Shown here piece after piece: positions 4,580 through 6,770 of a DNA stretch of 34,661 bases. Every line of letters starts with the position of its first letter. Position 1 is the stretch's first letter. The stretch covers positions 1-34,661 of the forward strand of contig NZ_JAMCCO010000001.1 in the NCBI RefSeq assembly GCF_023371205.1. Direction: 5' to 3'. This stretch comes from Parvivirga hydrogeniphila. Its GTDB lineage: Bacteria > Actinomycetota > Coriobacteriia > Anaerosomatales > Anaerosomataceae. The notes beneath the pieces were generated by a model that worked only from the letters and a program-made list of their open reading frames with translations, did not search any database and was not told the origin of the DNA. The translations under genes were made by a program, and so were the position numbers.

Positions 4580-4608
4580 TTGCCTGTCATCTCACAAGGT
4601 GATATATA
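4580..4608 (+). promoter_or_regulatory. Promoter of the TudS-like/ABC operon
   Basis: -35 TTGCCT (4580-4585), a 17-base spacer, -10 TATATA (4603-4608). A start near 4615 leaves a leader of about 25 bases with AAAGGA before the ATG at 4640. The ribosome-binding site sits between GTTGT and ACAAC, which could pair weakly. Confidence 0.7.
4589..4605. promoter_or_regulatory. Candidate operator in the TudS-like operon promoter
   Basis: Near-palindrome ATCTCAC-AAG-GTGATAT (6 of 7 arm positions match) lying in the promoter spacer and over the first half of the -10 box. A protein bound here would block polymerase. No regulator gene is adjacent, so the ligand and regulator are unknown. Confidence 0.45.
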
Positions 4609-4639
4609 GCAGGCTGATGTTGTCTATAAAGGAACAACA

Positions 4640-5155
4640 ATGCCTGCCCGATGTTCTTCCGTGACGCTCGTCGCGCACTGCCTGCTGAACCCGACGACGA
4701 AGGTTCACGGGCTGGTCCGCCAAACAGGTAGGAGCCCGGCCCTTCGAGAGATGCTCGACGGGGAAACCGCACTCATCCAGCTGCCATGCCCCGAAGCGAC
4801 GTATCTGGGCATGCAGCGATGGGGGATGACCTACGAGCAGTACGATACCCGAGCGTTCCGTCGGCACTGCGCCGAGATCCTTCGCCCCATCCTCGATACC
4901 CTGTCAGCGTTGAAGGCAGGTGGGGTGACGCTGAGCGAGGTCATCGGTGTGGATGGGAGCCCGAACTGCGGAGTCGCTCTGACGTGCCAGGGGTACTCAG
5001 GCGGCGAACCTGAGGACGTGTACGGCGCCGGGGGCACACCTCAGCATGCGAGGACGGTCGAGGGTTCGGGCGTCTTCTTCGAAGTCCTCGCGCAGATGCT
5101 TTCGGAAGCGGGCATCGAGGCACGGTTCATCGCGGTCCCAGAGGACTCCCTCTGA
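4640..5155 (+). CDS. TudS-related (DUF523-like) putative desulfidase
   Basis: The protein has 171 residues. Three cysteines sit in the pattern of the TudS/DUF523 superfamily: HCLLN (Cys14), PCPE (Cys50) and SPNCG (Cys110). In TudS, three cysteines hold a [4Fe-4S] cluster whose free iron removes sulfur from thiouracil. The HCLLNPTTKVHG start fits the branch annotated in databases as CD3072-like TudS-related proteins. Desulfidase activity and substrate are therefore inferred from family, not known. It is the first gene of an operon with a solute-binding lipoprotein and an ABC permease; the next gene's ribosome-binding region begins right at its TGA. It faces the isc-mnmA-cysK operon, which supports a role in sulfur salvage. 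Base composition is lower in GC than in neighbours. Confidence 0.82.
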   Translation: MPARCSSVTLVAHCLLNPTTKVHGLVRQTGRSPALREMLDGETALIQLPCPEATYLGMQRWGMTYEQYDTRAFRRHCAEILRPILDTLSALKAGGVTLSEVIGVDGSPNCGVALTCQGYSGGEPEDVYGAGGTPQHARTVEGSGVFFEVLAQMLSEAGIEARFIAVPEDSL

Positions 5156-5190
5156 TGATCGAACCAACGAGGCACACGAAAGGAGCTGGT

Positions 5191-6039
5191 ATGGCACGGA
5201 GATTGCGCATCGTGACTGCGAGCACACTGGCCTTGCTGCTCATCGCGACCCTAGCCCTCGGCGGGTGCACCACAACGGCCGAGCAAGGCGGTGCGACGAT
5301 CGGAGACGAGGAGGCTGCGAAGGACGCGTCGTTGCAGACGGTCAAGGAACGGGGCGAGATCATCGTCGGCCTGGCCCCCTTCTACGCCCCGTTCGAATCG
5401 ACGAACGAGCAAACCAAGGAGATCGAGGGCTTCGACATCGATCTGATGAACGCCATCGTCGAGAAGATGGGCGTGAAGGCGACGTACCGGCCCGCAGAGT
5501 GGCAGGCGCTCTTGGGCGGGCTCGAGAAAGGCGACTATGACGTCATCTTCTCGGCTATGTCGAAGAAGGAGGCCGCGGAGGCGAACGTCGAGTTCTCCGA
5601 CGTGTACTACCTTCTGCCGGACGTGATCATCGTCGCGAAAGGGAATCCCAAGGGCATCACGAGCAAAGACGACCTCAAAGACAAGATCGTCGGCGTCCAG
5701 CTTGGCTCAGGCAGCGAACAGCTTGCAGACGAGCTGAATCCGGAGATCGGCTTCAAGGGCCTCAAGAAGTACAAGCTCACACAGGACGCGATGAACGATC
5801 TGAAGGCCGGCAGGATCGATGCTGTCATCGCGGGCTACACTTTCGCGCTCGAGCAGGCGAAGGTCGACCCCAGTTTCGAGGTCTCGAGCGAACCTCTCGA
5901 GAGCGCCGAGCTGGTGGGGGTCTTCCGCAAAGGCTCCACCTCGCTCGTCGAGGCGTTCAATAAGGCGCTCGCGGAAGTCAAAGCCGACGGGACGTACGAC
6001 GCTTTGGTCAAGAAGTGGCTCACCATCCAGCAGCAGTAG
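5191..6039 (+). CDS. Family-3 solute-binding lipoprotein of an ABC importer
   Basis: A 282-residue extracytoplasmic receptor (SBP_bac_3, polar amino acid type). Signal peptide with lipobox ALGGC; lobe motifs IEGFDIDLMNAI and, at the C terminus, KADGTYDALVKKWL. I chose the ATG at 5191 because AAGGAG lies upstream; an in-frame ATG at 5155 lacks a site. Aligned by eye with HisJ-like receptors, the Arg that grips the ligand's alpha-carboxylate is Ala129 (MSKKEAAEANVEF) and the Asp that binds the alpha-amino group is Gly215 (GRIDAVIAGYTF). The ligand may therefore not be an ordinary alpha-amino acid. It precedes its permease across a strong hairpin. An ATPase gene is missing from the operon. Confidence 0.9.
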   Translation: MARRLRIVTASTLALLLIATLALGGCTTTAEQGGATIGDEEAAKDASLQTVKERGEIIVGLAPFYAPFESTNEQTKEIEGFDIDLMNAIVEKMGVKATYRPAEWQALLGGLEKGDYDVIFSAMSKKEAAEANVEFSDVYYLLPDVIIVAKGNPKGITSKDDLKDKIVGVQLGSGSEQLADELNPEIGFKGLKKYKLTQDAMNDLKAGRIDAVIAGYTFALEQAKVDPSFEVSSEPLESAELVGVFRKGSTSLVEAFNKALAEVKADGTYDALVKKWLTIQQQ

Positions 6040-6063
6040 CGCGTTAGCGCCTCGTGAAGGAGG

Positions 6064-6090
6064 GCAGGGCTGCCGAGCAGGCAGCCCTGC
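6064..6090 (+). other. Intercistronic RNA hairpin between receptor and permease genes
   Basis: Perfect 11-base-pair stem, GCAGGGCTGCC (6064-6074) and GGCAGCCCTGC (6080-6090), with a 5-base loop and no T-tract. Placed after the receptor stop and before the permease ribosome-binding site, it most likely protects the upstream message and lets the receptor be made in excess over the permease, as known for other binding-protein operons. Partial termination is the alternative. Confidence 0.7.
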
Positions 6091-6107
6091 TGCGCCTGGG
6101 AGGAACC

Positions 6108-6770
6108 GTGCGTAACGACCTACAGTGGAGGATCATCCTCAATTGGGTGCCCGAGCTTGGCGCCGCCGCGGTGCTCACCGTACGCATCACTGCGGTCTCG
6201 TTCGCAGTCGCCCTCCTCGTCGGACTGGCTGTCGGCATCATCCGAAGCAGGCCGCATCGGCTCACTGTCGTCGTCGCTGCATACGTGGAGCTCTTCCGAG
6301 GGACGCCGCTCTTGGTCCAGCTGTTCTTCATCTACTACGGCTTGGCCCAGATAGGTATCGTCATGGAGGCTATGACCGCTGCGGTCCTCGGCCTCGGCTT
6401 GAATGGCGGCGCGTACATCTCTGAGATCGTCCGCGGTGCGCTGGCGGGCATCGATCGCGGCCAGTATGACGCCGCACACGCCCTCGGAATGACCCGCTGG
6501 CTGACACTCACGAGCGTCATCCTTCCGCAAGCGCTCCGAACAGCCACGCCGCCCTTGGTGAACACATTCTCATCGATGCTCAAAGACACCTCATTAGTAT
6601 CGCTCCTCGCGATCACGGAGATGATGAACATCGCGAACCAGGTCTACTCGCGTACGTTCCGCGCGTTCGAGATCTTCGCGGTCGTGGCGCTCGTGTACTT
6701 CGTCCTGACGTTCGCATTCTCGCTGCTGAGCAGGCTTCTCGAACGACGGCTTGCACTCGGCCGAGCGTGA
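6108..6770 (+). CDS. ABC importer permease, His/Glu/Gln/Arg type
   Basis: A 220-residue integral membrane protein with about five helices. The ATPase-contact (EAA) loop is clear near residues 125-150 (SEIVRGALAGIDRGQYDAAHALGM), followed by PQALRTATPPLVN and KDTSLVSLLAI, typical of HisM/GlnP permeases. Start chosen at GTG 6108, which follows GGGAGGAACC; the frame is open to 6054. It should form a homodimer and needs a nucleotide-binding subunit, which is not encoded here. The next gene, cysK, is convergent with only 12 bases between and no visible terminator. One 60-base line near 6541 is 50 % GC, clearly below the neighbouring operon. Confidence 0.92.
   Translation: MRNDLQWRIILNWVPELGAAAVLTVRITAVSFAVALLVGLAVGIIRSRPHRLTVVVAAYVELFRGTPLLVQLFFIYYGLAQIGIVMEAMTAAVLGLGLNGGAYISEIVRGALAGIDRGQYDAAHALGMTRWLTLTSVILPQALRTATPPLVNTFSSMLKDTSLVSLLAITEMMNIANQVYSRTFRAFEIFAVVALVYFVLTFAFSLLSRLLERRLALGRA

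Follow-up and report, generated by a model that had tools for sequence, protein, structure and literature searches.

A three-gene operon in the 34,661-nucleotide stretch of Parvivirga hydrogeniphila DNA analysed here (the window) places a TudS-related putative desulfidase of the CD3072 family next to a PAAT-type importer whose receptor appears, from alignments, to have lost the anchor for alpha-amino acids. The operon is real, conserved and tightly linked. In related loci the same enzyme family stands beside an ECF importer (CD3073), and the desulfidase phylogeny indicates that the PAAT importer has replaced it.

The operon is proposed to be an uptake-and-desulfuration unit, in which we infer the direction of transport, the sharing of an ATPase, the class of substrate and the chemistry as follows. 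The lipid-anchored receptor would capture a small thionated compound other than an alpha-amino acid. Its most likely ligand is a thio-nucleobase or thio-nucleoside, for example one from the turnover of thiolated tRNA. The permease, which probably forms a homodimer and would be driven in trans by a GlnQ-type ATPase, would take the ligand into the cell, and the cytoplasmic CD3072-type protein would use TudS chemistry at a [4Fe-4S] cluster bound by three cysteines to take off the sulfur, yielding sulfide and a base that the cell can use. In this unit the PAAT importer would serve in place of the CD3073 ECF importer, under a shared putative operator. Taken whole, and with a thionated nucleoside or base as substrate, this explanation has a somewhat better than even chance of being right. 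It is highly probable that importer and enzyme share a substrate other than an amino acid; that this substrate is a thionated nucleoside or base has an even chance or slightly better.

Operon structure and conservation

The desulfidase, receptor and permease genes are co-directional on one strand with no ATPase gene among them (Table 1). Family profiles bear out the original prediction of a three-gene operon in which a TudS-like gene is followed by a receptor and a permease but no ATPase. Two starts were revised. The receptor start moves from 5155 to an ATG at 5191, with AAGGAG immediately 5' and a lipobox (LALGGC) in the product. The permease start moves from 6054 to a likely GTG at 6108, which has GGGAGG 5' of the codon and coincides with the starts of the orthologs.

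Table 1. Features of the desulfidase-importer operon and its upstream region (positions in the window).
Feature	Position	Strand	Basis or remark
Operator-like inverted repeat CATCT-N7-TGATA	4588..4604	+	Two mismatches to TATCA-N7-TGATA
Second half-site pair TGATG-N5-TATAA near the operator-like repeat	4615-4629		
CD3072-family TudS-related putative [4Fe-4S] desulfidase	4640..5155	+	171 aa; NF045597 144.5 bits, motif alignment, AF2 model
Family-3 solute-binding lipoprotein (receptor)	5191..6039	+	PF00497 130 bits, alignments; Ala129, Gly174 and Gly215 in amino-acid-anchoring positions
Strong RNA hairpin in the receptor-permease intergenic region	6064..6090	+	GCAGGGCTGCC-GAGCA-GGCAGCCCTGC; no T-run after hairpin
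PAAT-type (cystine/ectoine-permease-like) single permease	6108..6770	+	TIGR01726 97.8 bits, NF011680 186 bits, PF00528 91.6 bits

Genome sets of the order (69 genomes) and of the class Coriobacteriia (398 genomes) were searched for the operon. The receptor (E<=1e-40) occurs in seven of the 398 class genomes, spread over five genera and three families, with 71-100% identity. At all seven loci the desulfidase gene lies directly 5' and the permease gene directly 3', and the receptor was never found apart from the desulfidase gene in the class set. This linkage is far beyond chance and agrees with the original prediction, which had made the association of a TudS-like gene with SBP_bac_3 and permease genes in other genomes its neighbourhood check. 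A scan of 84,980 species genomes with short exact patterns, which distant relatives could escape, recovered four receptor loci and none beyond the seven.

A hairpin between the receptor and permease genes is present in all seven operons (z -3.1 to -5.0 against dinucleotide shuffles); its sequence differs each time and no T-run follows it. Stems in this position commonly leave the receptor transcript at a higher level than that of the permease, and may do so here.

The wider neighbourhood is not shared. Within the window's own genus (L026, L032) the operon has PEP carboxylase, cysK, mnmA and iscU as neighbours, but it has them at none of the four loci from other genera. The hand-over of the released sulfur to the facing isc and cysK genes that had been proposed earlier therefore has no comparative support, and was rejected as a general feature.

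The desulfidase family and its two importers

The first gene product scores above the cut-off of the NCBIfam model TudS_rel_CD3072 (NF045597; 144.5 bits, cut-off 130) and below the gathering cut-off of the Pfam thiouracil desulfurase family (PF04463; 19.7 bits, cut-off 34.7). In TudS, a 4-thio-UMP desulfidase (PDB 6z93/6z96; PMC10611767), Cys10, Cys43 and Cys104 are the cluster ligands and Glu45 and Ser101 are catalytic (PMC10611767); the same paper names no transporter. Alignment with the RudS of the same genome shows that the window protein retains the three Cys, the Glu and the first Ser, and its residues C14, C50, C110, E52 and S107 are invariant among 17 aligned homologs. The likeness to TudS covers the three cysteines, the CPE motif and Ser-Pro-x-Cys, and perhaps the predicted fold. 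In contrast to canonical TudS, the window protein has Asn109 in place of the second catalytic serine (TudS Ser103), where others have Ser or Thr. In all receptor- or ECF-linked members the base-stacking Tyr18 is replaced by Val (Val22 in the window protein) and Arg17 by Lys; RudS of the same genome retains both Arg and Tyr. The changes of Tyr18 to Val and of the second Ser to Asn imply that substrate or mechanism may differ from those for thiouracil.

An AF2 model of the desulfidase (mean pLDDT 73) gave no match at E <= 0.001 in plain Foldseek. A second look with VIA-align ranked the TudS entries 6z92, 6zw9, 6z93 and 6z96 first to fourth (Z 7.4-7.8; the next, unrelated, 6.2), a result that with Z < 8 is by itself not decisive. 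PDB sequence searches with the protein or its profile returned nothing relevant. Motifs and model together make a desulfidase-like function likely for the CD3072-type protein, and its substrate is not likely to be that of TudS.

The order holds 20 NF045597 genes in 18 of its 69 genomes. Seven are linked to the window-type receptor, and another five adjoin, in divergent orientation, the gene for an NF045596 (CD3073) ECF S component. One (G041) shares a short contig with an ECF ATPase, another two lie at the ends of contigs, and the other five have neither importer within about 7 kb. Conversely, all five NF045596 S components of the order adjoin an NF045597 gene, divergently. The window's genome itself carries a second CD3072 gene divergent from CD3073 (G000:C2:430324-431501; L028:7253-10742), with a T component and an ATPase nearby. 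A sixth pair was found elsewhere in the class (G351, Coriobacteriia outside the order), and the adjacency recurs in Cetobacterium, Enterococcus and Acetoanaerobium, the CD3072 and CD3073 genes occurring in Clostridia, Enterococcus, Fusobacteria and Coriobacteriia. The window operon contains no ECF S, T or A component and has the PAAT receptor and permease instead.

In the desulfidase tree the ECF-linked genes of G048 and G062 fall inside the window-type, receptor-linked clade (95/97 support), and the receptor-linked gene of G049 falls outside the sub-clade that holds them, so that the enzyme was kept and the importer changed. Such a history would make little sense if the two importers did not both bring in the enzyme's substrate.

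The CD3072/CD3073 pair (NF045597/NF045596) resembles the window operon in desulfidase family, in the pairing with an importer and in the putative operator, but the window importer is of the PAAT kind, which depends on a binding protein and has no kinship with ECF, and its operon has no ATPase gene. The earlier view that no uptake system of this kind had been described must be qualified accordingly: NCBIfam already names the desulfidase-ECF pair, whereas the PAAT version was not found described, and the use of PAAT in place of ECF is what is new here. The literature searched contained no functional paper on CD3072/CD3073 and no ligand or activity of any CD3072 member, and searches for thiouracil with an ECF transporter, or for TudS with selenium, found no relevant paper.

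On the Neorhizobium galegae plasmid pNgVX (L150:2781-7963), a CD3072-like gene lies beside an NMT1/THI5-type ABC importer, possibly a third importer type, and also adjoins an inosine-uridine-type nucleoside hydrolase.

Receptor-linked and ECF-linked genes also share an upstream palindrome. Among 1024 half-sites x 13 spacings, TATCA-N7-TGATA was the best inverted repeat in the 160 bp upstream of the ECF-linked CD3072 genes. Applied unchanged to the receptor-linked upstream regions, it matches five of seven with <=2 mismatches, a count reached in 0/1000 shuffles; its rate of 2.8% in AT-matched real windows gives p about 3e-7 for five of seven, although the palindrome was first noticed by eye and kinship among the regions could inflate these statistics somewhat. 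An unbiased scan of both sets pooled found a palindrome in 10 of 12 regions, against at most eight in 100 shuffles. Only six sites with <=1 mismatch occur in 536 kb of these genomes, five of them upstream of CD3072 genes. Receptor- and ECF-linked CD3072 operons may therefore be under one putative operator or switch; no Rfam riboswitch was found upstream of the operon.

Probable nature of the imported compound

Nucleoside hydrolases flank CD3073-related S components in three haloarchaeal loci (Haladaptatus, Halomarina), and two nucleoside 2-deoxyribosyltransferases adjoin a fourth (L196, L197, L198, L199). The CD3073 protein encoded in the window's genome shares 41% identity with one of these S components, and no CD3072 is annotated alongside the haloarchaeal genes. 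This arrangement suggests an ECF importer for nucleosides. These contexts, and the nucleoside hydrolase beside the Neorhizobium gene, concern relatives but together with TudS chemistry favour a thionated nucleoside or base as the substrate of the window operon. The original prediction, import of a sulfur compound that is not a plain amino acid followed by its desulfuration, gains from the linked operon and the anchor-less receptor, while its wide choice of substrates has been narrowed to this class.

A related case is the ECF S component QrtT of C. difficile, which imports queuosine and its base and acts with the hydrolase QueK and the lyase QueL (PMC11477304). There, too, import of a modified tRNA nucleoside or base is coupled to a converting enzyme, but enzyme chemistry and ligand are different and the importer is ECF only. 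If the ligand of the window receptor is a thio-nucleoside, the operon would salvage modified tRNA nucleosides by a route that parallels the one for queuosine.

The main rival to a thionated nucleoside or base is an organoselenium compound. The same machinery would import a seleno-nucleoside or similar molecule, from which the TudS-like enzyme would free selenide for SelD, and the operon would then encode an importer dedicated to selenium. The CD3072/CD3073 genes of Enterococcus gilvus and E. raffinosus lie directly 3' of yedF-DUF3343-selB-aminotransferase-selA. According to a 2026 review, a specific high-affinity transport system for selenium is still to be identified in prokaryotes (PMC13188914). 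All seven operon-bearing genomes encode selD, but so do 61 of the 69 genomes of the order, so that this co-occurrence says little and cannot discriminate. The window operon is not near sel genes, the Cetobacterium and Acetoanaerobium pairs have none within 5-6 kb, and the palindrome (<=1 mismatch) is found in 0/11 sel clusters scanned. A selenium substrate is accordingly judged unlikely.

Eleven clusters that span about 7-15 kb and were picked for selD and RudS on one contig combine a canonical RudS (TudS+DUF1722 type) with selD, selA and selB in every case and with tRNA-SeC in 10. That of the window's genome is at L182:6800-15098 (G000:C1 434.8-443.1 kb) and the others are L183-L192. TudS-family enzymes therefore recur in selenium gene clusters, as RudS in these and as CD3072 beside selA in Enterococcus.

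Slightly less probable again is that the enzyme serves to detoxify a thionated antimetabolite, or has another thioamide as its substrate, with the importer delivering the compound and no sulfur being salvaged. The Val in place of the uracil-stacking Tyr and the Asn in place of the second catalytic Ser, which set the protein apart from thiouracil enzymes, would be in keeping with such a role. However, a dedicated importer of the high-affinity type makes little sense for a toxin, and the linkage of the desulfidase to two different importers points to nutrition.

Receptor, permease and ATPase

The receptor scores 130.2 bits against SBP_bac_3 (PF00497). In AncQR (4zv1) and in HisJ-like, histidine and glutamine receptors, an Arg holds the carboxylate of the ligand and an Asp its amino group. 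The window receptor has Ala129 and Gly215 (numbering from 5191) at these positions. The substitutions, first read by eye, are confirmed by the alignments and are invariant in all seven orthologs; as a third change, the Ser-Thr of the carboxylate-binding loop has become Ser-Gly174. This reading of the pocket comes from sequence alignment, the AF2 model, made from five sequences, having a mean pLDDT of 49.6. Among 21 other readable family-3 receptors of these genomes, 12 combine the Arg with an acidic residue where the Asp would be, and nine have the Asp without the Arg. A missing Arg by itself is thus not unique in these genomes, but the double loss is, and the residues support the view that the receptor has lost its alpha-amino-acid anchor.

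The system is otherwise like the PAAT importers HisJMPQ, FliY/YecSC (cystine) and EhuABCD (ectoine), with which it shares the receptor and permease families, the single-permease layout and the EAA loop, and from which it differs in lacking both the Arg and Asp anchors and an ATPase gene. It could be an ordinary importer of cystine or polar amino acids whose receptor has drifted and whose TudS-like neighbour is there by chance, given that the cystine permease model (cut-off 300) is the best-scoring one for the permease at 186 bits, that the receptor reaches 136 bits with the model for cystine receptors (cut-off 312) and that one other receptor type in these genomes also lacks the Arg. This is improbable. 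Arg, Thr and Asp are replaced identically in all seven orthologs and the remaining pocket region is strictly conserved, which argues for selection and not drift; the other Arg-less receptors retain the Asp, and the receptor gene is in every case linked to that of the desulfidase.

ECF S components, which are membrane proteins, are difficult to screen. A soluble receptor of the window type in the role of CD3073 would bring the ligand within reach of simple binding assays, and its ligand would deorphanise the whole desulfidase-importer family.

The permease has the PAAT/HEQRo-type domain (TIGR01726, 97.8 bits, cut-off 42.2), and its orthologs are full-length and 69-85% identical. No cognate-type ATPase gene is present at any of the seven operon loci. 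Six of the seven genomes encode exactly one GlnQ-type ATPase, which lies in a separate and complete PAAT operon, and G010 encodes two; in the window's genome (G000:C1:812629-813345, 326 bits) that operon also encodes a long permease and two receptors. The simplest reading is that this ATPase likely powers the permease in trans, in line with the original suggestion of a borrowed ATPase. In Streptococcus suis, MsmK is an ATPase encoded elsewhere that serves ABC importers without their own ATPase (PMC4519317). MsmK is shared among carbohydrate importers, whereas for the PAAT permease of the window we infer the sharing. It is very improbable that an ATPase encoded near the operon drives the permease, as the LolD/MacB-type gene 5' of the desulfidase gene in G002 and an ATPase at the equivalent place in G001 might suggest, since LolD-type ATPases act in lipoprotein release and exporters, none occupies that position in other genera, and upstream in the window there is only PEP carboxylase.

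The second receptor of the complete PAAT operon has Val, Thr, Gln or Ser in place of the Arg and retains the Asp (L083:2284-3231; orthologs G001c, G002c, G010c, G042c, G049d and G056c). The window's genus also has a natural circular permutation of a family-3 receptor, in which the signal peptide is followed by lobe 2 and the C-terminal part and then by the N-terminal lobe (L083:3297-4238 on the + strand, G000:C1 about 810.3-811.2 kb; also L084:3567-4436 and L085:3463-4350). The permuted receptor retains the canonical Arg and Asp, and collinear relatives are found in L086, L088 and L089.
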